The position numbers and the translations under genes were made by a program. From Amylibacter sp. SFDW26 (GTDB lineage: Bacteria > Pseudomonadota > Alphaproteobacteria > Rhodobacterales > Rhodobacteraceae), in the NCBI RefSeq assembly GCF_009184395.1, contig NZ_WEIC01000002.1, forward strand, positions 124,001 to 188,000: a stretch of 64,000 bases of DNA, read 5' to 3'. Each line of letters opens with the position of its first letter. Position 1 is the first letter of the stretch. This document shows, piece after piece, positions 26,637 through 50,966 of the stretch. Under the pieces are notes generated by a model. It worked only from the letters and a program-made list of their open reading frames with translations, had not been told where the DNA came from and did not search any database.

Positions 26637-26657
26637 AACTTATCCAAGGAAATGAAC

Positions 26658-27992
26658 ATGTACTCTTTAACAAAAACTCTTGGTCTTGGATTGGCCGCAA
26701 CTGCACTGCCAGTTGCAGCTCTTGCACAAGACGCCCCTACAGCTGTGCCAACAGAAGTGGGTTACATCCTTACAACGCTACTATTTCTAATTGGTGGCTT
26801 CTTAGTTTTCTTCATGGCAGCTGGTTTTGCTATGTTGGAAGCAGGCCTTGTTCGTTCTAAAAACGTAACAATGCAGCTGACAAAAAACATGGGGTTGTTC
26901 GGCCTTGCATGTATCTTTTACTACCTGATCGGCTTTAAGCTAATGTATCCAGGTAAGGATTGGACAACATTTGGGGGTAAACTTCCAGAAGGTATTCTTG
27001 GTACGTTTGAACGAACAATCTTAGAACCAGTTGGCTTAGCAGCAGCAGATGCTGACTTAGCTTATGCATCTGTTGGTTCAGATTTCTTCTTTCAGTTGAT
27101 GTTCTGTGCAGCAACAGCGTCTATCGTTTCTGGCGCTTTGGCTGAGCGTATCAAACTATGGCCATTCCTGATCTTCACAATCGTTTTGACAGCAGTGATC
27201 TACCCAATCCAGGCTTCTTGGAAATGGGGCGGTGGCTTCTTGGACGCTATGGGTTTCCTAGACTTCGCTGGTTCAACAGTTGTTCACTCTGTAGGTGGCT
27301 GGGCTGCTTTGGCTGGTGCGCTAATTCTTGGTGCACGTATCGGTAAATACAAAGACGGTAAAACTGTTCCAATGATCGCGTCAAACCTTCCAATGGCAAC
27401 ATTGGGCACATTCATCCTTTGGTTGGGTTGGTTTGGCTTTAACGGTGGCTCACAATTGGCTATGGGCACAGTTGGCGATATTGCGGATATCTCTCGTATC
27501 TTTGTAAACACAAACGCAGCAGCTGCCGCAGGTGCCGTGGCCGCTTTGATCCTTACACAACTGCTTTACAAAAAGCCTGATCTTACAATGATCCTAAACG
27601 GAGCACTAGCAGGCCTAGTCTCTATCACTGCAGAACCACTAACACCAAGCATTGGCGCAGCATCTTTGATCGGTGCCGCTGGTGGTATCATCGTAGTGTT
27701 CGGTGTTCCATTCTTGGACAAACTGAAAATCGACGATGTTGTTGGTGCAATCCCAGTTCACCTGTTCTGCGGTATCTGGGGTACAATCGCTGTTGTATTC
27801 ACTAACGGTGACGCTTCACTGGGCACGCAATTGTACTCAATCGCAGTTGTCGGCGTGTTCACATTCGTAGCGTCAGCCATCCTTTGGTTCATCCTAAAAG
27901 CAGTCATGGGCATCCGTGTCAGCGAAGAAGAGGAAGTGATGGGCTTAGATAAATCTGAGCTGGGTATGGAAGCATACAACATCGAAGGTTAA
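26658..27992 (+). CDS. amtB: Ammonium transporter AmtB
   Basis: AmtB moves ammonium across the inner membrane as a trimer and is gated by GlnK. The 444-residue protein has a cleavable signal peptide (MYSLTKTLGLGLAATALPVAALAQ) and then eleven membrane helices. FDFAGSTVVHSVGGWAALAGA contains the first of the twin pore histidines, and the phenylalanine gate region and the late HLFCGIWGT (second pore His) are also seen. I prefer ATG 26658 because AAGGA is seven bases upstream, whereas the ATG at 26652 is only one base from it. A terminator follows at 28020. Confidence 0.95.
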   Translation: MYSLTKTLGLGLAATALPVAALAQDAPTAVPTEVGYILTTLLFLIGGFLVFFMAAGFAMLEAGLVRSKNVTMQLTKNMGLFGLACIFYYLIGFKLMYPGKDWTTFGGKLPEGILGTFERTILEPVGLAAADADLAYASVGSDFFFQLMFCAATASIVSGALAERIKLWPFLIFTIVLTAVIYPIQASWKWGGGFLDAMGFLDFAGSTVVHSVGGWAALAGALILGARIGKYKDGKTVPMIASNLPMATLGTFILWLGWFGFNGGSQLAMGTVGDIADISRIFVNTNAAAAAGAVAALILTQLLYKKPDLTMILNGALAGLVSITAEPLTPSIGAASLIGAAGGIIVVFGVPFLDKLKIDDVVGAIPVHLFCGIWGTIAVVFTNGDASLGTQLYSIAVVGVFTFVASAILWFILKAVMGIRVSEEEEVMGLDKSELGMEAYNIEG

Positions 27993-37624: not shown

Positions 37625-39091
37625 TCACCGCATTACGAAAGGGTCTGGAATCGGGTCATCGCTTGTACGCAACCACACAGCTTTCACCTTTGTATAATCC
37701 AGTGCAGCTTGCAAACCACCTTCACGACCATGACCACTAAGGCCGTGTCCGCCAAAAGGTGCTATAGGACTAACTGCACGATAAGTATTCACCCAAACAA
37801 TGCCTGCACGGATACCGCGGATCATACGATGCGCACGCGTTAAGTCTTTGGTGAATACACCAGACGCCAATCCAAATGTAGTGTCATTTGCGATTTTTAA
37901 TGCCTCTTCTTCAGTATCAAAACCGACAACAGACAGCACTGGTCCAAAAAACTCATTCCTTAAACATGGTGCATCAGGTATATTTGAACAATCGATAATC
38001 GTTGGCGGGAAATAGATGCCTTCGCAATCAATTGCTGTTCCGCCAGTGATGACTTTTGCACCTAACTCAACAGAGTCTTCTATCAATTTAAGCGCATTCT
38101 TACGTTGGCCTTCTGTACATAATGGACCCACTTCAGTAGCCATATCATCGGGCGCACCAATAACAACAGCTTCGGCTTTTTGTTTTAATTGGCTCAGAAA
38201 TTCGTCCTTTATATTATTTGAAATAACCAGCCTAGAACCTGCCACACAGCTTTGGCCGGTTGCTGCAAAAATACCAGATATCTGAGCATTAACAGCACTT
38301 TCAATATCGGCATCGTCAAAAACGATAAAAGGTGATTTACCACCTAGCTCCAAGGATGTAGACGCAAGGTTTTCTGCCGAGTTACGCACAATATGTCGTG
38401 CCGTATCTGGCCCTCCTGTAAACGCGACATGCGCAACTTTTGGATGGCTTGTTAAAACGGAACCACATTCTGCACCAAACCCAGTAATAACATTCAATAC
38501 CCCTGTAGGAAATCCAGCTTGATCAAATATACGTGCGAATTCCAACATAGGTGAAGGTGCTTCTTCTGATGCTTTTAACACAACAGTACATCCAGCAGCC
38601 AAAGCTGGGCCAATTTTCACCGCAGATAAAAATAGTTGCGAGTTCCAAGGCACAACCGCCGCTACAACACCAACTGGTTCGCGGCGCAGCCAGACTTCCA
38701 TATCTGGTTTATCAATTGGTAAATATGCACCTTCGATCTTATCAGCCAAGCCTGCATAGTATCTGTAAAACTCTGCTACGTATGCAATTTGCGCAGACGT
38801 TTCGCGGATAATTTTACCCGTGTCACGCGTTTCTAATTCTGCAAGGCGCGGTGCATTCTCACTTATTAAATCAGCAAGACGGTATAGTAACTTACCGCGC
38901 TGCGTTGCTGTCATCGATGACCATTCAGGCGAAAAGAAAGCATGATCAGCCGCATCAACAGCCGCATTCACATCATCAACCCGCGCTTCTGGCATCATAG
39001 CCCAAGTTTGTCCTGTTGCAGGATCAATACTCGCAAACTGTGCAGCACCATCTGAAAAGGTGCCATTGATATATTGTTGGAATTTTTGCAT
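37625..39091 (-). CDS. NAD(P)-dependent aldehyde dehydrogenase
   Basis: The 488-residue enzyme oxidises an aldehyde to a carboxylate. The catalytic cysteine C282 lies in TGQSCVAGSRL, the general base E248 in SLELGGKSPF, the oxyanion-hole N150 in VVPWN, and the cofactor-binding Lys in VLKASEEAP. It belongs to the same broad group as betaine-aldehyde and semialdehyde dehydrogenases. It is the last gene of a five-gene unit behind the luciferase-like monooxygenase (9-base gap), so it probably oxidises an aldehyde or semialdehyde formed by that oxygenase system. Confidence 0.9.
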   Translation of the reverse strand: MQKFQQYINGTFSDGAAQFASIDPATGQTWAMMPEARVDDVNAAVDAADHAFFSPEWSSMTATQRGKLLYRLADLISENAPRLAELETRDTGKIIRETSAQIAYVAEFYRYYAGLADKIEGAYLPIDKPDMEVWLRREPVGVVAAVVPWNSQLFLSAVKIGPALAAGCTVVLKASEEAPSPMLEFARIFDQAGFPTGVLNVITGFGAECGSVLTSHPKVAHVAFTGGPDTARHIVRNSAENLASTSLELGGKSPFIVFDDADIESAVNAQISGIFAATGQSCVAGSRLVISNNIKDEFLSQLKQKAEAVVIGAPDDMATEVGPLCTEGQRKNALKLIEDSVELGAKVITGGTAIDCEGIYFPPTIIDCSNIPDAPCLRNEFFGPVLSVVGFDTEEEALKIANDTTFGLASGVFTKDLTRAHRMIRGIRAGIVWVNTYRAVSPIAPFGGHGLSGHGREGGLQAALDYTKVKAVWLRTSDDPIPDPFVMR

Positions 39092-39100
39092 CGTATTTCC

Positions 39101-40138
39101 CTATTCAAAGGCTGGCATAACATCACGAATAAAACGTTCGAGCGAAGCTTTTTTGCGTTCAAAACTCATTCCGCTATCGATCCAGAATGAGTACTCATCA
39201 TAGCCTAATGCCTCGTATGATTTTAGACGTTTGATTGCAGCATCAGGTGTAGCGATAACATTATCGCGCATCATTGCTTCTGGTGTATAGAATGGGTGTC
39301 CTGCAATTTCTTCATCACTCAAAGGTTTGATTAAACCCTGCGAAATAGGACGTTCATTTTTGAACCAAGCCCCAAAATAACAATAGAAGCGGTTAATTTC
39401 TTCTGATGCTAAATGGGCATCTTCGTCATCAGATGCGATATAAGTATGATTTAGCAGCATGATTTTTGGACGCGCAATATCAGGATGCTTTTCACACGCA
39501 TCATTGAACGTTTGCATCAAGCTTTCGATTTCTTCATCACCTTGCCATAACGGGGTAACCTGCACATTGCAGCCAGTAGAAACTGCAAATTCATGACTAT
39601 TAGGATCGCGCGCAGCAACCCATATAGGCGGACCATTTTTTTGTATTGGCTTCGGGGATGATGATGTTTTGGGAAAAGAGTGAAATTCACCGTCTTGTGC
39701 GTAATCACCTTTCCAAAGCGCTTTTACTGCTGGAATCAATTCACGCATGCGTTGTCCGGCTTCCCAAGCATCCATGCCTGGCTGCATTCGTTCATATTCA
39801 AAATTGTAAGCACCGCGCGCAATGCCCAAATCAAGACGCCCTTCTGTTATAATATCTGCCATCGCTGCTTCGCCAGCCATGCGTATTGGGTGCCAGAATG
39901 GAGCAATCATCGTGCCCGTTCCCAAGCGCACATTTTCAGTATGCCGAGCCACATCAATAAGATTTAAAAGCGGGTTGGGAGCAATGGTGAAATTCATACC
40001 ATGATGTTCACCTGTCCAAACCGCATGCATCCCGCCCTTATCAGCGATTTTGCAAAGCTCGATAAACTCATCATATAATTGCTTCTGATCTTGGTCAGGG
40101 GAAACTCGTTCCATATGTGCAAACAAAGAAAACTTCAT
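39101..40138 (-). CDS. LLM class flavin-dependent monooxygenase
   Basis: The 345-residue protein has the bacterial luciferase-like TIM barrel, with RLDLGIARGAYNFEYERM and PPIWVAARDPNSHEFA as the flavin-binding strands. Such enzymes use reduced FMN from a partner reductase and oxygen to insert oxygen or open a ring. The reductase is encoded three bases upstream, and a hydrolase and aldehyde dehydrogenase are in the same operon. Comparable sets are TgnAB with TgnC and TgnD in trigonelline breakdown and RutAF with RutD in pyrimidine breakdown. The substrate is inferred to be an N-heterocycle or similar nitrogen compound. Confidence 0.87.
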   Translation of the reverse strand: MKFSLFAHMERVSPDQDQKQLYDEFIELCKIADKGGMHAVWTGEHHGMNFTIAPNPLLNLIDVARHTENVRLGTGTMIAPFWHPIRMAGEAAMADIITEGRLDLGIARGAYNFEYERMQPGMDAWEAGQRMRELIPAVKALWKGDYAQDGEFHSFPKTSSSPKPIQKNGPPIWVAARDPNSHEFAVSTGCNVQVTPLWQGDEEIESLMQTFNDACEKHPDIARPKIMLLNHTYIASDDEDAHLASEEINRFYCYFGAWFKNERPISQGLIKPLSDEEIAGHPFYTPEAMMRDNVIATPDAAIKRLKSYEALGYDEYSFWIDSGMSFERKKASLERFIRDVMPAFE

Positions 40139-40141
40139 CTT

Positions 40142-41059
40142 TTAACCCTTTGAATTTACTGCGCGGACTTTCCCGCTTGTTTCATTTCCCACATAAACAC
40201 CATAGTTCCCTATGCTGTTTTCATTAGCAAAACGTTCTAACATAGACGCCACTGCTGGGTCGCTTATCTGTGAAAGTACTTGTTCTGTAAGCTTTTCAAA
40301 ACTGCCCAAATTAGGCAGTCCATCTCCTGCTTTACATAAAAAGGAAATGTTCTGCCTTTCACGTTCGGCGTCTTCAAAGATTGAATATACAAAACCAGGT
40401 TGTGCACCCAAACCAGTAGATGCGATCAAATTATTTAATGCAATAGTAGCGCCACTTTTATCAGCAGTGATTTCTGGCAAAGCTAATCCACCTTGGCCAT
40501 CATCGATTAAAAGCACTTCGTCAGCACGCTCTATAATTGCGGATACCACCAAGTTTGTAGTTTTATTTAGCGCTTCAGCAGTTGCAGATGGTGTCACGTA
40601 AGCACCGTTTGCATATCCTAAACCAGGAGCTGTAGATGCATCATAAACTTCGACTTTACCAATTAAAATAATATGGTCTCCCGCCTCTACAATCTTATGC
40701 ATGGAACAATCGAACCATGCCGAAACGCCACTTAGAATAGGTGAACCATGTGGGCCTTTTTTCCATGAAACTGCCGCAAATCGATCATCAACTTTACGCG
40801 CAAACGTATTCGAAACATCTTTTTGATCTTCAGCTAAAATATTAACAGCAAACCCTTCGGCTTGAGTTAAGGCCTCATAATTACTTGAGCTATTCGCCAA
40901 GCAAACGAGTAGCAGCGGAGGCTCTAAAGAAACGGATGTAAACGAATTGGCCGTAAACCCTAACGGATTTCCGTTTTTATCATGTGAGGTTACAACTGTA
41001 ACGCCCGTCATAAATGTACCAAATGCATCACGCAGGCCGCGTGGGTCCATATAATCCAT
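40142..41059 (-). CDS. Flavin reductase with C-terminal Nudix-like extension
   Basis: The first 165 residues form a flavin-reductase-like split barrel (GTFMTGVTVVTSHDKNG, TANSFTSVSLEPPLLLVCLA), which supplies reduced flavin to a partner oxygenase, probably the luciferase-like enzyme encoded three bases downstream. The remaining 140 residues are not usual for stand-alone reductases. They include VVSAIIERADEVLLIDDG and GGLALPEI followed by ALNNLIASTGL, which resembles a Nudix fold with the box residues REXXEE replaced (NN and AS), so hydrolase activity is unlikely. It could bind a nucleotide or the partner enzyme. The Nudix-like reading is tentative. Confidence 0.82.
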   Translation of the reverse strand: MDYMDPRGLRDAFGTFMTGVTVVTSHDKNGNPLGFTANSFTSVSLEPPLLLVCLANSSSNYEALTQAEGFAVNILAEDQKDVSNTFARKVDDRFAAVSWKKGPHGSPILSGVSAWFDCSMHKIVEAGDHIILIGKVEVYDASTAPGLGYANGAYVTPSATAEALNKTTNLVVSAIIERADEVLLIDDGQGGLALPEITADKSGATIALNNLIASTGLGAQPGFVYSIFEDAERERQNISFLCKAGDGLPNLGSFEKLTEQVLSQISDPAVASMLERFANENSIGNYGVYVGNETSGKVRAVNSKG

Positions 41060-41862
41060 TATACGTCCTTTCTCACTTCAGGTTGTTTTAACCATTCTAA
41101 CAGTATGTGGTTAACTTCGTCAGGCGCAGTCAAATTCACCATATGTCGCTGCCCTGGCAATACTCTATAATTCCCATTTTGCACGGCAGATGCCATATCA
41201 ATAGCCATTTGGGGTGTGGAATTTGGATCATCGTCACCCGTAAGAGCGAGCATAGGGCAAGCAATATCTGACAATTGGTCAACATATGCCATATCTCCAG
41301 ACGCGAACGCGCCGTATGCCGTTGCATAACCAAACAAATCCACATCACTTAACCAAACTGCAACTTTTTCACGTACAATTTCATCATCGCAAGAAAACCA
41401 ACGTTTAAGTGGCGTTTCTAAGTCGATATTGCCTTGCTTAATCTCTGCAGCGCGCGCCTTTACAGCAGCGCGAGCCTCTGTTGTGCGTCTATAAACACCG
41501 TTTAATAAAGCAACACGTCGCACAAAGTTTGGATAAGTTACAGCATAGCCACCAGCAATCATAGCGCCCATGGAATGACCCGCTAAGTTGATCCGATCAA
41601 CATTCAACCCAAGCGTAAAAGAATGAAACCAAAAAACATAGTCTTCAATACCAGCGCCTTCTGGCAAAGGATCACTTTTACCATGACCTGGCATGTCTAC
41701 GGCTATCACTCGATACGACTTAGACAGCTCCTTTATCTGCGGCTCCCATGCGCAAGATTGCATACCCACACCGTGAATTAAGATCAAAGGTTCCCCATGG
41801 CCAATATCCTGATAGGATACCTTAAGTGGGCTATTTGACAGCTGCAGGGTTTTCAACGTCAT
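41059..41862 (-). CDS. Alpha/beta fold hydrolase
   Basis: The 267-residue enzyme has the alpha/beta hydrolase triad: nucleophile S97 in LAGHSMGAM, an aspartate in ALTGDDDPNST near 205 and the histidine in LPGQRHMVNL near 240. The oxyanion-hole HGVG is at 30-33. The placement resembles RutD in pyrimidine use or TgnC in trigonelline use, where a hydrolase splits the ring-opened amide or enamine product. It overlaps the flavin reductase gene by one base and the DUF1185 gene by 32 bases. Confidence 0.87.
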   Translation of the reverse strand: MTLKTLQLSNSPLKVSYQDIGHGEPLILIHGVGMQSCAWEPQIKELSKSYRVIAVDMPGHGKSDPLPEGAGIEDYVFWFHSFTLGLNVDRINLAGHSMGAMIAGGYAVTYPNFVRRVALLNGVYRRTTEARAAVKARAAEIKQGNIDLETPLKRWFSCDDEIVREKVAVWLSDVDLFGYATAYGAFASGDMAYVDQLSDIACPMLALTGDDDPNSTPQMAIDMASAVQNGNYRVLPGQRHMVNLTAPDEVNHILLEWLKQPEVRKDV

Positions 41863-42436
41863 GTCCTAATTCTTTTAAATCTTGATATCTATCACCAATG
41901 CGGTGATGTGGACGACCACCAATAGAAGCGCCAAGCGCAATGACGATTTCATCAGCCGCAGGAGCATCGCAAATTGATGTTTGGATTGTTAAATAGTGCG
42001 AGCGGCGCCCACCATCATTTTTATCCATCAAGGGAATGAGGAGTGGTGCATTTGCTGGGCCGCGCGTGTTGCAAAATGACAGGTATGATTTAGCACCAAC
42101 AGCTTCTCGGTAATGATTACCAAAACGCAAAGTATGGATCAGCGCCGAAGCATGTTCCACCTCACCATCCAAGCCTACGATTGCAGATTTTCCATAGCCC
42201 TCAACCTTATCACCCCCACCAGCAGCATCCAAAATCATCTTGGTCAGCAATTCGCCCAAACCAGGTGCACAGTCGTTAATTGCGGGGCGTAGATCTTCGA
42301 CAAAACCCTGACCTGCCCATGGGTTTTTTATAATCGCAATTGCTGCAATCATTTTTAGCGGCGTCTCAGCAATCTTACCGCCCTCAATTAGGGTATCTTC
42401 GACATGCAATAGTGTTTTGCGAATTTCGGCTGGCAT
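41831..42436 (-). CDS. DUF1185 (AA_synth, PF06684) protein
   Basis: The 201-residue protein matches DUF1185, with RKTLLHVEDTLIEGG at the start, KNPWAGQGFVEDL, and the VGAKSYLSFCNTRGPANAP and SIGGRPHHRIGDRYQD segments. Structures of this family, one from Ruegeria pomeroyi, show a chorismate-mutase/YjgF-like trimer fold and suggest a role in amino-acid metabolism; no activity is proven. It is the first gene of the oxygenase operon, where a Rid-like enzyme (RutC) would be in the Rut operon. A perfect palindrome (42474-42485) precedes it. Confidence 0.85.
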   Translation of the reverse strand: MPAEIRKTLLHVEDTLIEGGKIAETPLKMIAAIAIIKNPWAGQGFVEDLRPAINDCAPGLGELLTKMILDAAGGGDKVEGYGKSAIVGLDGEVEHASALIHTLRFGNHYREAVGAKSYLSFCNTRGPANAPLLIPLMDKNDGGRRSHYLTIQTSICDAPAADEIVIALGASIGGRPHHRIGDRYQDLKELGHDVENPAAVK

Positions 42437-42473
42437 TTTGGGTAGCTTTCCATTTAAATTAATCTATTGTATG

Positions 42474-42485
42474 ATGGTATACCAT
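42474..42485. promoter_or_regulatory. GntR/FCD-type operator in the divergent oxygenase-operon promoter
   Basis: ATGGTATACCAT is a perfect 12-base palindrome in the 102-base region between the DUF1185 gene (minus) and the GntR gene (plus). It contains TGGT-N2-ACCA, close to the operators of FCD-type GntR regulators such as PdhR. It is 38 bases from the DUF1185 start and 54 bases from the GntR start, so a single protein could control both directions. The GntR protein at 42539 is the likely binder. Confidence 0.65.
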
Positions 42486-42538
42486 AATATTAGAGTCAAT
42501 ACCTGAATATACCTTGCTGGGCTCCAAAGCGGCTGATA

Positions 42539-43243
42539 ATGAAATTACCTATGACACCAGAACGTTCCAACCTTTCTAAGATCGAGCAACACCCCATAAC
42601 ACTTAGGGATAAGGTTCAAGAACGTATGCGCGAAGCTATAATTCAAGGTCACTTTCAACCTGGAGAACGTCTTGTCGAAAGACCCTTGTGTGAACAATTG
42701 GGTGTGAGCAGAACAGTCATCAGAGAAACTATTCGCTATTTAGAAGCTGAAGGTCTTGTCGAAATCCTTCCCAATCGTGGACCCATTGTAGCTAAAATGA
42801 ACTGGGATGACGCCAAGCAAATTTATGAAATCCGCAAACAACTCGAAACTTCTGCAGCTGTTGCTTGTGCGAAAAACCATTCGAATGAAACACAAGACAA
42901 ATTAAAATCATCATTAAACGCATTGGAGCTCGCTTTCAAAGATGGCGGCACGGCCACACTTTTCCAAGCTACAGCCCAATTCTACCAAGTGATATTTGAA
43001 GAAGCTGGGCACCATATTGCTTTAGAGATTGTTCAAAGGTTGAACGGCCGGATCAGTAGGTTGCGTGTTATGACATTGTCAACAAACGACCGTTTTCAAT
43101 CAGGGTTCGCCCATATGACAGCTATCTGTGAGGCGATTCTATCACGTGATCCAAAAGCTGCAAAACGCGCTGTTGAGACTCATATTCATGATGCCGCACA
43201 GATCGCAAAACGCTTGCTAGCAGACGAAGATATGGGTGTTTAA
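42539..43243 (+). CDS. GntR family regulator, FCD subgroup
   Basis: The 234-residue protein has an N-terminal winged helix (about 22-90, with RVQERMREAIIQGHFQPGERLVERP-like order and LGVSRTVIRETIRYLEAEGLV) and a C-terminal all-helical FCD domain (about 97-220) that binds small organic acids, often with a metal through acidic and His residues. FCD regulators normally repress catabolic genes until the substrate or an intermediate binds. It diverges from the oxygenase operon across a palindrome, making that operon its expected target. The gene for a DUF1330 protein follows after one base. Confidence 0.9.
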   Translation: MKLPMTPERSNLSKIEQHPITLRDKVQERMREAIIQGHFQPGERLVERPLCEQLGVSRTVIRETIRYLEAEGLVEILPNRGPIVAKMNWDDAKQIYEIRKQLETSAAVACAKNHSNETQDKLKSSLNALELAFKDGGTATLFQATAQFYQVIFEEAGHHIALEIVQRLNGRISRLRVMTLSTNDRFQSGFAHMTAICEAILSRDPKAAKRAVETHIHDAAQIAKRLLADEDMGV

Positions 43244-43244
43244 A

Positions 43245-43535
43245 ATGCCAAAAGGATATTGGATTGCTCACGTTACAATAACTGATGCAGGTCAGTATAA
43301 AACTTACCAAGAAATAGCGCCAAAAGCTTTCCAAAAATACGACGCAAAATTTCTTGCACGGGGCAGCGATGCGCAAACGCTAGAAGGTGATCAATGGCAG
43401 CGTCATGTTGTTATCGAATTTGATAGCATGGAGCAGGCATTAGAATGTTATAACAGCACGGAATACAAAAACGCTCGTGCCCTTCGAGACGGCACATGCA
43501 AGGCAAGTATTACGATCATAAACGGTATGGAATAG
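43245..43535 (+). CDS. DUF1330 family protein
   Basis: The 96-residue protein belongs to the DUF1330 group of the dimeric alpha-beta barrel (ferredoxin-like) superfamily, shown by PKGYWIAHVTITDAGQYKTYQ and QWQRHVVIEFDSMEQA and YNSTEYKNARALRD. Such small proteins often sit in catabolic operons, where they may be isomerases or monooxygenase-like, but no activity is proven. I use ATG 43245 because MPKGYWIAHV fits the family; a GTG nine bases upstream is possible. It begins one base after the GntR stop, so it is transcribed with that regulator. Confidence 0.8.
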   Translation: MPKGYWIAHVTITDAGQYKTYQEIAPKAFQKYDAKFLARGSDAQTLEGDQWQRHVVIEFDSMEQALECYNSTEYKNARALRDGTCKASITIINGME

Positions 43536-43560
43536 TAAGCCCATTTCAATCTAAAGGTTT

Positions 43561-44553
43561 TCATTCACTCAGGTGGGCCGTTGGTGATTTCATTAAAATT
43601 TCAGAAAATTTCTTCCCAATATACTCAGGGCATAATGTGTTTTTATCTCCTATCGCAACAATCTGAGATGACATCTTTTGCAACTGCAACGGCTTTTCCG
43701 CAGCCTCTATAGTCGCTCTATACCCTACTAAATCGAATAAATATGGTGTTTCGGGCGCATCAGAAAACCGCAAGATACCCTTCGCGCGATAGCAATATTT
43801 TGGAAGCATTCTCGCAAAGCTTGCAAACTGTTCGCGATCAATCAAAACGCCAGTTTCTGCACTCCATCTTTTATAGTGTTCAGTGTGATTTACAGCTTTC
43901 AAAGAGTTGAATTTTTTCTTCTTAGTTTCACGCACTGCAATATCAATTTCCCGACTAATCAATATAGACACATCAATCGAACAGTAGGACGTTGATACAA
44001 CATTCGTAAATGGTGCTGCGTCTTTCAGAGTATGAGTTAATGCTGTTTGCCTATCTTTTGGCGTAATATCAACTTTGTTTAAAAGAACCAAATCGCTGAC
44101 TGCAGCGCAGTCTAAAATATATTCTGAATCTTCAAAGTTTAAATTGCAGAATTCATATGCATCAAGAACATAAAGCTTTGTGTCCAATCGCGTAAGGCCC
44201 GCTGCCTCAAGCATATCTAAAGATGCATCAAGAGCACGTGGATCTGAAACACCACTCGCTTCAATTATAATAGCATCTGGCAGGATTTCTTGGCGGGCAA
44301 AGTCTGCAATCCCAGCAACTAGATCATCATTTAATGAGCAACACACACATCCATTTTTTAAAGAGATGCGATTTTCCTCTACTGTTTCTATCTTTTCGAA
44401 ATCAATATTGATCGCACCAAAATCATTTACAAAAACAACATATCTTTTGCCATTTGCCTGAGACAAAATACGGTTCACAAGTGTCGTTTTACCTGATCCA
44501 AGAAACCCCCCAATTGTAATGATAGGGAGCCTATTTTTTGCTTTAGAGACCAT
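43561..44553 (-). CDS. CobW/COG0523 family metal-chaperone GTPase
   Basis: The 330-residue protein is a G3E GTPase of the COG0523 type. It has Walker A in GGFLGSGKTTLVN (15-27), the metal-binding CxCC motif C69-C72 in NGCVCCSLND, the base-recognition LLNKVD and a C-terminal CobW_C domain. Members supply zinc, cobalt or iron to client enzymes. Its start overlaps the amidohydrolase gene by 11 bases, so delivery of metal to that probable metal-dependent hydrolase is a likely role. I chose ATG 44553 because the longer frame adds residues not typical of the family. Confidence 0.88.
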   Translation of the reverse strand: MVSKAKNRLPIITIGGFLGSGKTTLVNRILSQANGKRYVVFVNDFGAINIDFEKIETVEENRISLKNGCVCCSLNDDLVAGIADFARQEILPDAIIIEASGVSDPRALDASLDMLEAAGLTRLDTKLYVLDAYEFCNLNFEDSEYILDCAAVSDLVLLNKVDITPKDRQTALTHTLKDAAPFTNVVSTSYCSIDVSILISREIDIAVRETKKKKFNSLKAVNHTEHYKRWSAETGVLIDREQFASFARMLPKYCYRAKGILRFSDAPETPYLFDLVGYRATIEAAEKPLQLQKMSSQIVAIGDKNTLCPEYIGKKFSEILMKSPTAHLSE

Positions 44554-46165
44554 TATGCCAAACCAATTCACCAGCAAGATATGTGGCGTGTATATTTATC
44601 TTTGAGAGCTCGTTTGGATCGCACTGGAAAACATCTTGATCCAGAATAACAAAATCTGCGTGTTTACCAGATGTGATTGATCCTAGCTTATCTTCCATTC
44701 CAATTTGATACGCAGCATCAATTGTAACGGACTTCAGTGCAGTCATAACATCAAGACACTCGTCCTGCCCAAGACAACGACCATCGCCCGCTTTTCGCGT
44801 AATTGCAGCCTGCATCAATTCCAAACCTGATGGGTCAGTCATCGGAGTATCCGCATGAAGACTAATTTTCATACCATATTTCACGGCAGTTCCTGCAGGC
44901 ATGTAATGTGCAGCTCGCTCTGGGCCAAACAACGCATCTTCGATAGGCGCTCCCCAGTGAGTAATGTGGTTGATGAAAAAACTACATAGAACACCAAGCT
45001 CTTGCGCACGTATTATTTGATCTTCGCGCATAAGTGCGCAGTGTTCTAATCTAAACCTATGATCATCTCTTGGCGTCTCAGACAAGATTGTTTCCACAAG
45101 ATCAAGAACCATATCAATGGTTCTGTCCCCTTGTGTGTGTATTGTCATTTGCCATCCTTGCGCAAAATATGTGCGCACCATTTTTTCAAAGAACTCCTGC
45201 GGGTAATTCACAGAACCAGTATGACCTGGCTTAAGATTCATACGCTCCAAAGTTGTTTCAGTTTCAAGATATGGTTGTGATAACCAGATGTTTCCAATCA
45301 GCGGTGATCCATCTGCATGTATCTTCACACCTGCCATCCATAAACGATCATCGCCCATGGAAAGATTTTCAACTTGCATATCAGCAGTTGTAGCTTGTTG
45401 GTATGCCGCAACCCGTGGCAACGATAATCCTTGGTTTAAGGCGCTTTGATAATAAGCTTTATAAAATGGCATATAAAGATGCTCGGTTACCGTTGTAATA
45501 CCGTTTTGAATAAATTCACAAATAGACGCTTTAAACTGATCGTTAAGACGTTGATCCCCCCATGCTGTATAAAATGTTTCTAAAGCTGACCAAGTAATAG
45601 CTTCCGCAATCTTACCGCTCGGACGGCCTGCGCTATCTCTTTCAATAATACTACCAGTAGGTGTTGGCGTATTTTCATCAATACCACACACCTCAAACCC
45701 CTTAGAATTCATATAAAGTGCGTGACAATTTGAAGTTTGAATCCCGATCGGATTATGAGGGGCAATTTCGTCCAATAACGCACGCGTTGGCGATTCCATA
45801 TCTGGATGTAATTGCGCATCTAAACCGAAAAATATTAAATGCTCATTTGGCTCTGCAACAGCTACACGCCGTTTGATTTTACTTAAGACTGCTTGGTATG
45901 TTGGAACGGTTTCAGCACGGACATCTACAACAGGCGCACCACGTGTTTTTGCAGCCCACAGTGGGTGTGAGTGGGCATCAATAAGCCCAGGTAAAAGGTA
46001 CTTTCCCTTTAGATCAACCGTCTGATGGCCGTCCGAGAGGAGTGATTGGGTCTCACCTAAAGACCCAACCCCAATTATTTTACCATTTCTTACGGCAACA
46101 GCTTCAGGAAAACGATTGTCACTATCAACGGTAATAATCGTTCCACCAACGAAAAGTATTTCCAT
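44543..46165 (-). CDS. YtcJ-like amidohydrolase (N-substituted formamide deformylase-like family)
   Basis: The 540-residue protein belongs to the amidohydrolase_3/YtcJ family of metal-dependent hydrolases. The metal HxH is H65 and H67 in LIDAHSHPLW, with later ligands expected in HADGSPL, HTQGDRTID, RLEHCALM and SLHADTPMTDPSG. The family includes N-substituted formamide deformylase (about 548 residues), which is of interest because ring opening of N-methylpyridinium compounds can give N-formyl-N-methyl products. The substrate is not established. It lies between the GYD and CobW genes in the transporter operon. Confidence 0.83.
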   Translation of the reverse strand: MEILFVGGTIITVDSDNRFPEAVAVRNGKIIGVGSLGETQSLLSDGHQTVDLKGKYLLPGLIDAHSHPLWAAKTRGAPVVDVRAETVPTYQAVLSKIKRRVAVAEPNEHLIFFGLDAQLHPDMESPTRALLDEIAPHNPIGIQTSNCHALYMNSKGFEVCGIDENTPTPTGSIIERDSAGRPSGKIAEAITWSALETFYTAWGDQRLNDQFKASICEFIQNGITTVTEHLYMPFYKAYYQSALNQGLSLPRVAAYQQATTADMQVENLSMGDDRLWMAGVKIHADGSPLIGNIWLSQPYLETETTLERMNLKPGHTGSVNYPQEFFEKMVRTYFAQGWQMTIHTQGDRTIDMVLDLVETILSETPRDDHRFRLEHCALMREDQIIRAQELGVLCSFFINHITHWGAPIEDALFGPERAAHYMPAGTAVKYGMKISLHADTPMTDPSGLELMQAAITRKAGDGRCLGQDECLDVMTALKSVTIDAAYQIGMEDKLGSITSGKHADFVILDQDVFQCDPNELSKINIHATYLAGELVWHNGL

Positions 46166-46503
46166 TAGTCACCTTTCACGGCTGTATAACTATCACGTAA
46201 TTCGCCCGCTTTGCTCTGGCTCGCAACGAAATCATCATTGCTTATAAGCGGAATAATCTTGTGATATTTAGACATCCCAGTTGCATCGGCAAGATGCATA
46301 TTCGCTGCTACAGACGCCATATCAGGCATATTGTATACAAACATCATGTCGTATTCACCAAAGGTGCCATAGGCGTTTATAAGATTACCTCCCATAGCCC
46401 CTATTGCCTTGCGGCACACTTCGGCCCGATCACTTGGATGCGTTAGCATTTCTTCTTTTTTATCGTTTTCATATTTAATGAATAAAGCGACGGTTACTGT
46501 CAT
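46165..46503 (-). CDS. GYD-domain protein
   Basis: The 112-residue protein has the GYD-type dimeric alpha-beta barrel pattern, with TVTVALFIKY, then AIGAMGGNLINAYGTFGEYDMMFVY near the middle, the G-x-Y-D segment that names the family. The function of the family is not established. The gene begins three bases after the ABC permease gene ends and overlaps the amidohydrolase start by one base. Together with the DUF1330 protein it is the second small ferredoxin-fold protein of this region. Confidence 0.8.
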   Translation of the reverse strand: MTVTVALFIKYENDKKEEMLTHPSDRAEVCRKAIGAMGGNLINAYGTFGEYDMMFVYNMPDMASVAANMHLADATGMSKYHKIIPLISNDDFVASQSKAGELRDSYTAVKGD

Positions 46504-46506
46504 GGC

Positions 46507-48015
46507 TTATCTCCTTTTGCCTTGAATAATTCGGTCGAGGATCATCGCGCAGAATAAGATCGCTAAACCTGCTAAAATGCCTTGTCCTTCAGATGCGTAT
46601 TGCAGTGCTTCCAGAACGTCTTCACCTAAGCCTTTGGCACCAATCAAAGATGCAATCACAACCATAGCCAAGCTCAATAGAATTGTTTGATTGATACCTG
46701 CCATTATGGATGGAGCAGCAAGTGGAATATCGACTTTCCAAAGAAGATATCTTTTGCTTGCACCATATGCCATTGCAGCTTCGCGGACAGACGATGGAAC
46801 GCCCTTTAGGCCAAGCACTGTTAAACGCACCACAGGAGAACCACCAAAGATCATCGTTGCAATAATGGCTGCAGGTTTTCCTGTTCCAAAGAATGCAATT
46901 ACTGGGATCAGGTATACAAATGCAGGCATTGTTTGCATAAAATCCAATATCGGACGCACGACTGCATATAATTTTGGTTTGCGCGCGCATGCGATACCCA
47001 ATGGAATACCCAAAGCAATGCTGATACATGCGGCAGTTCCCAGCAAAGCCATCGTTTTCATACTTTTATCCCAGAACCCAAGATAACCAAGATATGCAAG
47101 TGCTGCTGCAGTAAAGATTGACGCGCGCCAACCCGCAGATAGTCCAGTCAGTAAAAGGATGAACCCACCCATAACAGGCCATGGTGTTTCTACAAAAATC
47201 GTTTCCAATGCATCAAGTACACTTCTGATGCCAAACGTGAGGCCATCAAAAAACCATTCTGAGCTGAGCGATGCTGATGTCATCCAAGCTTTAATAGCGT
47301 CCGCAGCAGTCGTTTGTATGCTTGGGTCGGCAGGAAAGCTTTGCAAGGCAGCCACTTGAGACGGAAACCCAAATTTCAAAGCACAGGTCACATAAGTCAT
47401 AATAGCAAGAAGTGTTGCCAACGAAATTTGTGGTACGCCAAAACCAGAGCTAAGAGTACGGTCAGAGCGCCATTTTGTATAACGACGTTGCAAGGCTGTA
47501 TTTGCTAAAATTGCTTGAACAATTTTCACACCAATCAAAACGGCAATACCAAGCAGAACCAATTGAGTTGCAGTATTTTGCGCAGCTACCGCATCGAGTT
47601 TAATACCTTCAATTGCGCGTTCTAGAGACGCAATTGTTTTTTCAAAAGCAGCGACTTTATCAGGCGTATTTTCTTGCGCATCCAACAATTGCTCACGCCT
47701 TGTTGCTAACGTTTGCTCAATGCCCCCTAGGCGTTGAAGGAATGGTGCGCCAAGATCCCCCCATACACCGCGTGCGATTTGAACGACTGCCATTGTTTCA
47801 ATGGCCACGAATGGTAGAAAATACGCCCAAAGGTTTCGCATCCCAAACCATATTGACCCAAGTAAAAACGCTGCAATATTAAATGTGAATTCAAAGCCGC
47901 GTTTATCCCCGATTTTCTTAAACTGTTCATCATAGTATTCGGCGTTTACGTCTACAAAATCTTGTACGCTTTGTTCTGTTTCTAATACGCCAGTATTATC
48001 TAATGTATTATCCAT
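46507..48015 (-). CDS. Betaine-type ABC transporter permease with long N-terminal extension
   Basis: The 502-residue protein has a ProW/OpuAB-type permease domain in its C-terminal part (about 270-500), with the EAA coupling motif in EAAMAYGASKRYLLWKV (412-428). ProW-type permeases are usually 270-360 residues. Here about 230 extra residues precede it: a membrane pair near 45-85, a probable coiled coil (about 97-145) and another membrane segment (about 150-170). The transport domain suggests uptake of a quaternary amine or related osmolyte-like substrate. The extension is unusual and has no assigned role. It overlaps the ATPase gene by one base. Confidence 0.88.
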   Translation of the reverse strand: MDNTLDNTGVLETEQSVQDFVDVNAEYYDEQFKKIGDKRGFEFTFNIAAFLLGSIWFGMRNLWAYFLPFVAIETMAVVQIARGVWGDLGAPFLQRLGGIEQTLATRREQLLDAQENTPDKVAAFEKTIASLERAIEGIKLDAVAAQNTATQLVLLGIAVLIGVKIVQAILANTALQRRYTKWRSDRTLSSGFGVPQISLATLLAIMTYVTCALKFGFPSQVAALQSFPADPSIQTTAADAIKAWMTSASLSSEWFFDGLTFGIRSVLDALETIFVETPWPVMGGFILLLTGLSAGWRASIFTAAALAYLGYLGFWDKSMKTMALLGTAACISIALGIPLGIACARKPKLYAVVRPILDFMQTMPAFVYLIPVIAFFGTGKPAAIIATMIFGGSPVVRLTVLGLKGVPSSVREAAMAYGASKRYLLWKVDIPLAAPSIMAGINQTILLSLAMVVIASLIGAKGLGEDVLEALQYASEGQGILAGLAILFCAMILDRIIQGKRR

Positions 48016-49094
48016 TAGGCTTCCGTCCCTTTAACCACACCGTTAAGCAGGTCATTTTTTGTAACGACCCCGATTTTTTCTCCTGCATTGTTCTCAATCA
48101 CAATCGGAGCATCCAAATCTACAGAGGCTGCAATAAGTTCTTTTAATGTTGCATTGTCAGACATCGACACCGCATTTTTTGGTATCTTTCCGCCAGATTT
48201 TTTGTACTCGTCGAGCGGTGTTAACAAGCTATGCGCACGGATCAAATTAATCCGTGAAATTCCAGCTACAAAATCAGATACGTATTTGTCACCTGGGTTC
48301 ATAATTATTTCTTCAGGCGTTCCTGTTTGCACAATGATACCGTCACGCATGATTGCAATACGGTCACCAATGCGGACCGCTTCATCAAGGTCATGCGTGA
48401 TAAAGACAGTTGTCTTATTCATTTTAGACGCAAGGTGCATAAATTCATCTTGCAACTGGCGGCGGATCAATGGGTCAAGCGCACTGAATGGCTCATCCAT
48501 CAAAAGAACATCTGCGTCCGCCGCAATAGCACGCGCCAAACCTACACGTTGTTGCATACCGCCAGAAAGTTCATGGGCAAATTTATCCCCCCAATCGCCT
48601 AATTCAACCATTGCAAGCGCGCTTTCAGCAGCAGCCCAGCGTTCGTTTTGCGAAAAACCTCTGATCTCTAAAGCCATCGCAACATTGTCGCGAACAGACC
48701 TGTGTGGCATCAAACCAAAATCCTGAAAAACCATCGCAATCTTTTCATTGCGCACTTTTAAAAGCTCATCATCATCCAAAGCCATTATATCTTGCCCAGC
48801 TACAAGTACTTTACCAGCAGTTGGCGTTAACAATCGGTTGATGTGGCGAACAAGTGTAGATTTACCACTGCCAGACAAACCCATCACACAAAAAATCTCA
48901 CCACGCTTAACTTTGAAACTTGCATCAGCTACGCCGACAACACAGTTAAAGCGTTCTAAAACTTCTGGCTTTGTTAGGCCTTCATTTTTTATGGCCTTAA
49001 AAGCTTCATCGTGCTTTTCGCCAAAAATTTTCCACACACCATCAATTTCGATCACAGGTTGACCATCAGATGGATTCTCATTCTCTATCGACAC
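48015..49094 (-). CDS. Betaine-type ABC transporter ATP-binding protein with CBS domain
   Basis: The 359-residue ATPase has Walker A in GLSGSGKSTLVRH, the signature LSGGMQQRVGLARA, Walker B in LLMDEPFSALDP, and the C-terminal CBS region (about 290-355), the order of ProV and OpuAA. In those proteins the CBS part senses ionic strength, but here only one CBS-like motif is clear. It energises uptake together with the permease and binding protein. The next gene upstream is the substrate-binding protein gene, 98 bases away with a hairpin in the gap. Confidence 0.92.
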   Translation of the reverse strand: MSIENENPSDGQPVIEIDGVWKIFGEKHDEAFKAIKNEGLTKPEVLERFNCVVGVADASFKVKRGEIFCVMGLSGSGKSTLVRHINRLLTPTAGKVLVAGQDIMALDDDELLKVRNEKIAMVFQDFGLMPHRSVRDNVAMALEIRGFSQNERWAAAESALAMVELGDWGDKFAHELSGGMQQRVGLARAIAADADVLLMDEPFSALDPLIRRQLQDEFMHLASKMNKTTVFITHDLDEAVRIGDRIAIMRDGIIVQTGTPEEIIMNPGDKYVSDFVAGISRINLIRAHSLLTPLDEYKKSGGKIPKNAVSMSDNATLKELIAASVDLDAPIVIENNAGEKIGVVTKNDLLNGVVKGTEA

Positions 49095-49136
49095 GGAATT
49101 TCCTCGTTACCTAAAATGGTAATTAAAGTGTTAGTC

Positions 49137-49167
49137 TACCAGCACAGCACCAAACTGCGCTGGTAGA
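49137..49167 (-). other. Intercistronic hairpin between the binding-protein and ATPase genes
   Basis: CTACCAGC (49137-49144) and GCTGGTAG (49160-49167) are perfect 8-base arms, extended inward by CAG/CTG across single mismatches. This stem-loop lies 25-56 bases past the binding-protein stop and before the ATPase gene. Such structures commonly protect the mRNA of an abundantly needed binding protein and reduce read-through. No T-run follows it. Confidence 0.6.
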
Positions 49168-49192
49168 AACATGCTAGTTTATAAGGGAGAGT

Positions 49193-50158
49193 TCACAAAC
49201 CTAGCCATTTATCAACGCGCTCAGAATTCGCCGCGATCCATTCACGGGCTACATCTTGGCTATCGCGTTTTTTGACAATGATTTCATGCGTCCAGTTGTT
49301 CACTGTTTCAGTATCAAGAGCGATATTTGATAACATTGCAGCCACATCTGGTACGCGAGATTCTAATGATTTTGAATAACCAACATGGATGCTCTTAGCC
49401 TTGTCCCCCGTTTCAACTTTGGAGTTTTCAAACCACTTAGGATCTTCTGCTGGTTGCTTCATATCGTACTTTGAAGCGTCAAATGCTGGTTCTTCCAACT
49501 GCACCATGTCAAACACAAACCAGTTGTAATGTGGTGCGTAACAATAGAAGGCATATCCTTCACTCTTGTTAATTGAATCTTTGATAGATGCTGTTGCTAT
49601 CTCTTCTTCTGCCTGAATTGGGCTAAAGAAATTACCGATGCCATAATCCCGCACCTTAACCATGTTGATCTTTGTTGAAGCCCAGCCTGGTGCTCCAACC
49701 CATATATCACCTTTACCATCACCATCACGATCCATTAATTTCGCAATTTCTGGTGTTGCTAGGTCGTACACTGTTTTCACGTTATGTTTTTCGCTAAATT
49801 CACGTGATACACAAAACCCAGAAAAGCCTTCATAATTACTTTGGCTCAACGCAACAGTGTTCTTTTCACCGACATATTCATCTGTGAAATTTGACTGGTT
49901 TGGCAACCAAACGTCTGGGTGCACATCAATTTCACCTTTACCACGATCCATCGCCTTAAAGACAACAGCATTAGTTCCCGGAACAAGCTCTGCGCTACCG
50001 CCAAGCTTGTCTTCAATAATGACCTTCACAAGCCCTGCAACTGCACGACCACTTGCCCAGTTAGGTTCCGCAATTTTTACAACTTCTTGCGCATAGCCCG
50101 CAACGGCTGTTGTTGCGCTCAGCACAGCTGAAAGCGCAATTGTTTTCCAATTGTTCAT
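49193..50158 (-). CDS. Betaine-type ABC transporter substrate-binding protein
   Basis: The 321-residue protein has a signal peptide (MNNWKTIALSAVLSATTAVAGYA) and the OpuAC/ProX fold. The segment EPNWASGRAVAGLVKVI, aromatic residues in WVGAPGWAS and YAPHYNWFVFD, and Trp-rich regions suggest the aromatic cage that binds quaternary ammonium groups. The ATG at 50158 is preceded by GGAGG at seven bases, so I prefer it to the 50185 start. The ligand cannot be read from sequence; a quaternary N-compound is the most likely type. It is the first gene of the transporter operon. Confidence 0.91.
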   Translation of the reverse strand: MNNWKTIALSAVLSATTAVAGYAQEVVKIAEPNWASGRAVAGLVKVIIEDKLGGSAELVPGTNAVVFKAMDRGKGEIDVHPDVWLPNQSNFTDEYVGEKNTVALSQSNYEGFSGFCVSREFSEKHNVKTVYDLATPEIAKLMDRDGDGKGDIWVGAPGWASTKINMVKVRDYGIGNFFSPIQAEEEIATASIKDSINKSEGYAFYCYAPHYNWFVFDMVQLEEPAFDASKYDMKQPAEDPKWFENSKVETGDKAKSIHVGYSKSLESRVPDVAAMLSNIALDTETVNNWTHEIIVKKRDSQDVAREWIAANSERVDKWLGL

Positions 50159-50189
50159 TTTTGGCCTCCTCCCAAATGATTCCAATATC

Positions 50190-50221
50190 TGACATGTTAG
50201 TTATTATTTACTGACATGTCA
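50190..50221. promoter_or_regulatory. Two TGACATGT(C/T)A sites in the divergent transporter promoter
   Basis: TGACATGTTA (50190-50199) and the perfect palindrome TGACATGTCA (50212-50221) are 22 bases apart, two helical turns. They lie 31-63 bases upstream of the binding-protein start and 82-114 bases upstream of the GntR gene. The tandem arrangement is typical of an operator for a dimeric GntR protein, with the one at 50304 the first candidate. Confidence 0.62.
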
Positions 50222-50303
50222 ACAAAGGGTTCTGGCCAACAAAAGGGTTTAAACTATATCTTCAAAATGTTATGAGTAGGCCTAAATTTTATGGAAATGC
50301 AAA

Positions 50304-50966
50304 ATGAACAAACAGAACGTTCAACCCTCTATGTTAAAGGATGAAGCTTACACATCACTGGAAAGAATGATTGTGAATGGCGACTTGGCACCAGGGGAAT
50401 GGGTATCAGAAACTGACCTGATAGAAGCTTCAGGTTACACCCGTGCATCCGTACGTTCAGCAGTTCAACGCCTAGAAGATCAAGAGCTTATAAAAATCTT
50501 CCCACGAAGAGGAGCGCAGGTATGCCCAATTGACTACACACGACAATTTAGAGCTCTTGAATTAAGGCGTGCAGTGGAAACATTAATCGCCCGCTCTGCA
50601 GCTAAACGTGCTAGCGAAGAACAAAAAAATAAGTTTTTAAAGCTTTCAAAAAGCTTTATTGAAGTTTCTCAATCTGGCAATCAACTATCAATGACTGAAG
50701 TAGATTCAGAAAATTACGCTCTCTTATTAGAAACAGCTGACAATCCGTTTGCGGCAAAAGCAATGACATCCGTAAAAGGTTTATCGAGAAGATTCTGGGT
50801 CATGTATTCCGAGGAATATGGTGACATTGAAAAAATGGCCGATGCTCATTCTGATATCGCATTAGCCGTATCTAATGCAGATGAAGATGCCGCTGAAAAG
50901 GCAGTGGAGAACTTAATCAGTTATGTAGAACAATTCACATTAGAAGTGGTTGGTTATGGCTCCTAG
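50304..50966 (+). CDS. GntR family regulator, FCD subgroup (transporter side)
   Basis: The 220-residue protein has a GntR winged helix (about 12-75, with ERMIVNGDLAPGEWVSETDLIEASGYTRASVR in order) and a helical FCD domain (about 83-210). It is only distantly similar to the GntR protein at 42539, so the two are not a recent duplication. It diverges from the transporter-amidohydrolase operon across two palindromes, which makes that operon its expected target. Two FCD regulators bracketing one catabolic region suggests separate sensing of the imported substrate and of an intermediate. Confidence 0.88.
   Translation: MNKQNVQPSMLKDEAYTSLERMIVNGDLAPGEWVSETDLIEASGYTRASVRSAVQRLEDQELIKIFPRRGAQVCPIDYTRQFRALELRRAVETLIARSAAKRASEEQKNKFLKLSKSFIEVSQSGNQLSMTEVDSENYALLLETADNPFAAKAMTSVKGLSRRFWVMYSEEYGDIEKMADAHSDIALAVSNADEDAAEKAVENLISYVEQFTLEVVGYGS

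Follow-up and report, generated by a model that had tools for sequence, protein, structure and literature searches.

A stretch of 64,000 nucleotides from Amylibacter sp. SFDW26 (contig NZ_WEIC01000002.1, positions 124,001 to 188,000; hereafter the window), taken from a 3.1-Mb genome in 12 contigs, carries two adjoining operons on one strand, operon 1 at 37625-43243 and operon 2, here called cassette 2, at 43561-50966. Our comparisons make it very probable that operon 1 is the tgn operon for trigonelline degradation and that cassette 2 is an unrelated module beside it. A sequence-only reading had proposed that the two operons together import and break down a quaternary nitrogen heterocycle. Its gene list holds: all genes that it named are present as long, densely packed open reading frames (ORFs), Pfam confirmed the families of both operons (the oxygenase set of operon 1; transporter, GYD, Amidohydro_3, and cobW in cassette 2), and each operon lies opposite its own divergent gene with Pfam GntR and FCD domains.

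The enzyme genes of operon 1 are on the minus strand. Starting from the regulator side, they encode a TgnF-type protein (41831-42436, 201 aa; Pfam AA_synth, PF06684, formerly DUF1185), a TgnD-type alpha/beta hydrolase (41059-41862, 267 aa; Abhydrolase_1) with a GHSMG nucleophile motif, a TgnA-type flavin reductase (40142-41059, 305 aa; Flavin_Reduct), a TgnB-type luciferase-like oxygenase (39101-40138, 345 aa; Bac_luciferase), and a TgnC-type aldehyde dehydrogenase (37625-39091, 488 aa; Aldedh) with LELGG and GQSC motifs. The gap between this operon and its plus-strand regulator gene (42539-43243) holds an exact match to the putative tgn operator TGGTATACCA (42475-42484).

In cassette 2, the plus-strand regulator gene (50304-50966) faces six minus-strand genes for an OpuAC-type substrate-binding protein (SBP; 49193-50185), an ATP-binding cassette (ABC) ATPase (48015-49094; ABC_tran), a permease (46507-48015; BPD_transp_1), a GYD-domain protein (46165-46503), a YtcJ-like metal-dependent amidohydrolase (44543-46165; Amidohydro_3, 274.2 bits against a cut-off of 29.7), and a CobW-type GTPase (43561-44577; cobW and CobW_C) with Walker A and CVCC motifs. 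Judging from an alignment, the SBP and CobW ORFs as called probably start a few codons too early. The ATPase belongs to the betaine/proline/choline subfamily TIGR01186 (343.7 bits, over the cut-off of 326.6) but misses the choline equivalog TIGR03415 (375.2 versus 483.75 bits), as does the permease its best NCBIfam match, TIGR03416 (262.9 versus 363 bits). Two motif matches to TRACATGTYA (50190-50199 and 50212-50221) mark putative operators; TGGTATACCA and TGACATGTCA are the putative operator sequences that we assigned to the two GntR proteins.

Identity of operon 1

A tblastn comparison of the window's TgnB-type protein with plasmid records matched 1090 records. The best matches, at about 80% identity, were from Rhodobacterales, and a full-length match of 74.1% (344 aa) was obtained with a gene of Acinetobacter sp. 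PK01 that is annotated as tgnB, the oxygenase component of the flavin-dependent trigonelline monooxygenase. In PK01, a GntR gene faces genes in the order amino acid synthesis family protein, alpha/beta hydrolase, tgnA, tgnB, and tgnC, which is the order in the window. Because of the full-length match and the identical gene order, we assign operon 1 to tgn and regard it as an ordinary representative of a known system; the Tgn-like logic seen by the sequence-only reading thus points to tgn itself. The PK01 proteins served as the tgn reference in place of those of Acinetobacter baylyi ADP1, and blastp against them gave identities of 74% for TgnB, 70% for TgnC, 72% for the PF06684 protein, 56% for GntR, 54% for the hydrolase, and 47% for TgnA (299 aa). 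The name TgnD is our presumption for the hydrolase, whose PK01 counterpart is annotated merely as an alpha/beta hydrolase. The window's genome has one copy of the TgnB-type gene (E<=0.001). Compared with copies from Leisingera, Ruegeria, and Thioclava, the window TgnB and TgnC are 78-83% identical (TgnC 80-83%), and the PF06684 protein is 88-92% identical to those of the same genera and Nitratireductor. The GntR protein shares 53-63% identity with those of six tgn-type loci.

Seven annotated TgnB-bearing clusters were examined, of which PK01 alone carries the tgn annotation. The order of the five enzyme genes is kept in all seven, always with the PF06684-type gene in first place. In five, the GntR gene lies next to the operon and points away from it; in Burkholderia, a DUF1330 gene separates the divergent pair, and in Ensifer the GntR gene is co-directional with the operon. 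The presence of a DUF1185 protein, earlier thought to make a possibly new combination, is therefore no novelty. In PMC7913881, the former-DUF1185 protein HcdD is described as homologous to A. baylyi TgnF, and since TgnF is a homologue of a DUF1185 protein, the PF06684 protein is an expected operon member. The same paper states that TgnF stimulates TgnE-dependent succinate semialdehyde oxidation and that a like effect was not demonstrable for HcdD. Our literature search for DUF1185 together with luciferase found no paper.

The palindrome TGGTATACCA occurs in nine of 12 tgn-type regulator-operon gaps, including those of Acinetobacter (PK01), Leisingera, Ruegeria, Phyllobacterium, and the window. 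Its 12-base form ATGGTATACCAT is found at one place in the whole genome, at operon 1, and the operon-1 regulator therefore probably controls operon 1 alone.

TgnB relatives (E<=1e-120) are present in 58 of the 345 sampled genomes of the window's family, 34 of them with at least 69% identity (the window's own included) and 24 with 62-68%. No match above 64% was found among the 24 other genomes of the window's genus, eight of which have relatives of 58-64%. We compared the operon genes at 20 loci picked from family and other genomes. The five loci with a match to the regulator TgnR (L101, L102, L103, L107, and L108) show identities of 69-82% for TgnB, 53-60% for the hydrolase, and 70-83% for the dehydrogenase. 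Thirteen of the 15 loci without a TgnR match have values of 54-68% for TgnB, 29-41% for the hydrolase, and 51-57% for the dehydrogenase (found in 12 of the 13); the remaining two are L094 (TgnB 37%) and L099 (TgnB 62%, plus closer pieces of an oxygenase-free set). Sister operons of this kind (L002-L009, L095-L098, L100, and L104) encode a TgnB-like protein of 57-68% identity; where the flanks were compared, they have PF06684, hydrolase, and mostly aldehyde dehydrogenase genes but no TgnR match. In L095 and L096, the two sister loci that we annotated, the regulator is of the LysR type. This sister group is a candidate for the use of another N-methylpyridinium.

A 68-row tree places the window in a supported set of 29 Rhodobacterales rows. 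We rejected a clade defined by a 69% identity cut, as the label needs three changes on the tree and none of 200 bootstrap trees had one. The label does not fall on one side of a branch because L102 lies below the cut in this test despite its TgnR match and because the base of the tree is unresolved.

Operon 1 is thus predicted to degrade trigonelline (N-methylnicotinate), with the GntR-type regulator acting at the TATGGTATACCATA-like palindrome. With reduced flavin from the flavin reductase TgnA, the luciferase-like oxygenase TgnB would open the N-methylpyridinium ring. TgnC would then oxidize the N-methylformamido semialdehyde, and TgnD would split the product into succinate semialdehyde, methylamine, formate, and CO2. 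The PF06684 protein TgnF would be accessory, and a succinate-semialdehyde dehydrogenase encoded elsewhere in the genome would complete the route. These chemical steps are reportedly those of a 2018 paper on trigonelline; what we computed are gene identity, gene order, conservation of regulator and palindrome, and the dehydrogenase candidates, two genes elsewhere in the genome whose products share 62% and 58% identity with the succinate-semialdehyde dehydrogenase encoded in the tgn cluster of Phyllobacterium. Passages of PMC11354265 and PMC9151330 that treat TgnB and trigonelline add nothing further on these genes.

Several observations weigh against this assignment. Conservation is lower in TgnA (47%) and the hydrolase (54%) than in the other enzymes, so that the substrate may have shifted, and operon 1 is without a transporter of its own, so that the adjoining betaine-type importer might serve it. 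Exact copies of TGGTATACCA are missing from three of the 12 tgn-type gaps (L024, L103, and L026). In the 68-row tree, PK01 TgnB sits at an unresolved fork outside the window's supported clade, and the tree by itself is no proof of orthology between the two proteins. Finally, the Phyllobacterium tgn cluster includes a GXGXG-domain gene that we take to encode a subunit of N-methylglutamate synthase, belonging to a methylamine route; this subunit was not found in the window's genome by a search whose control record was positive, and the same search was positive in three of eight other TgnB-bearing genomes of the family.

Partial sets and small neighbouring genes were also seen around tgn-type loci. 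On a plasmid of Nitratireductor sp. OM-1 (L026, 11208-14944), genes for a TgnR-like regulator, a PF06684 protein (92%), and a TgnD-like hydrolase (57%) adjoin a succinate-semialdehyde dehydrogenase gene without tgnABC, and the regulator gap holds the near-palindrome TACGGTATACCATA. At L099 (2-2727), PF06684 (87%), hydrolase (57%), and aldehyde dehydrogenase (78%) genes of the close Tgn type stand side by side without reductase or oxygenase, and a separate reductase gene and the 62% TgnB-like gene lie about 5 kb from them. Small genes beside tgn-type clusters encode DUF1330 (L021, L024, and L126) or NIPSNAP proteins (L025 and L125), and cassette 2 has its small GYD protein. All three presumably have one common dimeric fold, and a common accessory role would be a guess. 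An ammonium transporter gene lies at 26652-27992 of the window, about 10 kb from the tgn operon; the PK01 tgn cluster also has one nearby, which is probably a coincidence.

Conservation and possible role of cassette 2

A scan with YtcJ identified 22 loci in alpha- and gammaproteobacteria at 64-88% identity, the closest named one being from an uncultured Amylibacter (88% in YtcJ). All seven genes occur in the window's order (GntR opposite SBP-ATPase-permease-GYD-YtcJ-CobW) at 15 of these loci; transporter, YtcJ, and CobW are found together at 19, and CobW adjoins YtcJ at all 22. Of the other three loci, L038 and L052 are truncated at the ends of their contigs; in Pelagibius L051, YtcJ and CobW adjoin each other, and a more distant set of transporter genes lies about 5 kb from this pair. 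Among the genomes of the window's family and class, YtcJ at E<=1e-140 was found in one of 345 and one of 241, respectively, both times in the window's own, when no more than 4 to 6 candidates were scored for each genome.

The borders of the cassette are sharp. A blastn comparison of the whole window with Amylibacter L031 gave one collinear block (43606-50966, 78%) that ends at the cassette edges, and the sole other match was to a second permease. The latter corresponds to a betaine-type permease gene at 9-638 of L031 (596 aligned columns, 70% nucleotide identity) that is separated from the cassette regulator gene by about 4.6 kb. An efflux-pump pair of distant similarity (23-27% protein identity) is encoded close to the cassette in the window and in L031, on opposite sides of it, and is probably unrelated. 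Apart from the cassette genes, no family (35% identity, 60% length) is shared by four or more of the 22 loci, save a shadow ORF antisense to the SBP gene (4 loci); three loci from Kiloniellaceae have neighbour genes in common.

The cassette-2 GntR protein is 57-78% identical to 17 neighbours of other cassette-2 copies and 21-26% identical to the GntR proteins of the tgn side. The regulator-SBP gaps of the window and of the 17 loci (out of 22) with a regulator match all contain TRACATGTYA. Sixteen of these 18 gaps hold at least two copies, spaced 21-22 bases from start to start in every case. The motif was defined after a first look at the gaps, so that 18 of 18 is no blind test; in mononucleotide shuffles, 0.02 sequences on average contained a site. 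Taken alone, the window gap with its two sites is only mildly unusual (7 of 100 shuffles). Cassette 2 looks like a self-contained, sharply bounded module that is independent of operon 1.

Residues W43, W93, and Y220 of the SBP are conserved in each of 20 binding proteins; their counterparts in Borrelia ProX (3tmg) are W, W, and the W of PHW, and residues at these places presumably make up the ligand cage of known proteins. The SBP model, with a mean pLDDT of 53.6, was not good enough to be used. In YtcJ, H65, H67, E228, H343, H375, and D439 are invariant in all 22 aligned sequences; H65-S-H67 makes up the HxH motif, and the further residues are predicted metal ligands. The YtcJ model (mean pLDDT 77.5) gave structural matches merely to uncharacterised or diverse hydrolases. 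Our searches found no characterised close relative of YtcJ and no NCBIfam match near its cut-off, and for the GYD protein no PDB relative at E<=1.

CobW stays beside YtcJ in Pelagibius L051, where the importer differs, and because of this constancy with differing importers the delivery of metal to YtcJ is our best guess for its role. In Cupriavidus, a gene annotated as GTP-binding protein follows a 47% YtcJ relative, perhaps as a CobW-YtcJ pair. In the proposed mechanism, cassette 2 would import a small, probably cationic solute, in which the metal-dependent YtcJ, probably provided with its metal by CobW, would hydrolyse a C-N bond.

Two attempts to narrow down the substrate were rejected: the nearest plasmid relatives of the transporter (50%, 42%, and 40%) have differing catabolic neighbours and point to no common substrate, and the flanking genes include no recurrent family outside the cassette. 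Our literature searches on formamide deformylase and on GYD with amidohydrolase or betaine (the latter among the matches listed) turned up no described function for the cassette. It is about an even call whether cassette 2 represents a dedicated and so far undescribed marine alpha- and gammaproteobacterial pathway for the uptake and hydrolysis of one cationic solute, equipped with a metal chaperone for its own hydrolase.

One system or two

Most likely, cassette 2 is not part of trigonelline use, and its position beside operon 1 is best explained by chance or a recent insertion. The alternative that survives best, although we hold it to be improbable, grants cassette 2 a system of its own but assumes that in this genome its importer accepts trigonelline as well, which would make the adjacency useful though recent. 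It would supply the transporter that operon 1 lacks, and as the tgn palindrome has no second copy in the genome, it accompanies no other importer. However, the cassette-2 promoters bear only the other palindrome: the tgn palindrome is absent from all 18 cassette-2 gaps, and TRACATGTYA from all 12 tgn gaps. Moreover, the cassette generally occurs without tgn.

A tgn-like operon that has shifted to another N-methylpyridinium, such as homarine, is very unlikely. The gene set does diversify, as shown by the related operons with their lower TgnB and hydrolase identities and mostly without a TgnR match, but the window groups with the close copies that have TgnR and the common palindrome. Homarine, which the sequence-only reading had named as a possible substrate, does not fit an operon that matches annotated tgn genes, and according to PMC8269262, TgnA/TgnB opens the trigonelline ring and is for steric reasons unlikely to act on homarine. 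The same paper reports that growth of Ruegeria pomeroyi on homarine is less effective than on trigonelline. No characterised homarine operon turned up in our literature searches, which is no proof that none has been published.

Least credible is a single pathway in which a quaternary N-heterocycle enters the cell through the operon-2 importer and, once operon 1 has opened its ring, YtcJ deformylates the product: the operons do adjoin on one strand, operon 1 has no importer, and a betaine-type importer with conserved aromatic residues would suit a cationic solute, but the two differ in regulators, palindromes, and distribution and are separated by a sharp border. No tgn genes were found at any of the 22 cassette-2 loci, in stretches of 4.6-21.6 kb (E<=1e-8). 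A TgnB relative of at least 60% is present in three of 21 cassette-2 genomes (78, 67, and 65%; E<=1e-60), with four more at 36-39%; this is no commoner than the 58 of 345 in the window's family at E<=1e-120, a comparison in which the 21 genomes are not all from that family. Only the 78% relative lies inside the window's supported TgnB clade. Directly behind the enzymes, the seven tgn clusters have a cytosine permease, a BCCT carrier, an ABC transporter of another type, or no carrier at all, and none of these is annotated as betaine-type. Nor does a required role of YtcJ as deformylase find support: a TgnD-type hydrolase is encoded in operon 1 itself and, in the published trigonelline pathway, is said to release formate unaided; we take N-substituted formamide deformylase to be a member of the Amidohydro_3 family.

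Comparison with known systems

Operon 1 as a tgn operon adds a marine carrier to the trigonelline degraders, which is of modest weight for the cycling of dissolved organic nitrogen. For discovery, cassette 2 is the more promising of the two, its borders, regulator, and putative operators being well defined. Its hydrolase shares the Pfam family of the YtcJ/Amidohydro_3 hydrolases, and its fold is best matched by the uncharacterised Pyrococcus hydrolases 3igh and 3icj. Its importer resembles the betaine/choline importers ProU, ChoXWV, and OpuA in that the ATPase exceeds the TIGR01186 cut-off and the SBP matches glycine-betaine binding proteins in the PDB. It differs from them in that the window proteins stay below the choline equivalog cut-offs and the SBP is only weakly similar to the solved ones (best E 1e-8).

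The plasmid clusters of Leisingera, Ruegeria, and Thioclava share with operon 1 the gene order, the regulator, and TgnB and TgnC at 78-83% identity. These copies are not annotated as tgn and differ in their flanking genes, Thioclava having a BCCT carrier behind tgnC. The known system itself is the tgn operon of A. baylyi ADP1, with PK01 (NZ_CP094644.1) as the annotated copy. Whereas the PK01 cluster is accompanied by a permease, a succinate-semialdehyde dehydrogenase, a sarcosine-oxidase-like set, and folate genes, all of which the window operon is without, the two share the order of the five genes, the divergent GntR gene, the palindrome, and 47-74% protein identity.

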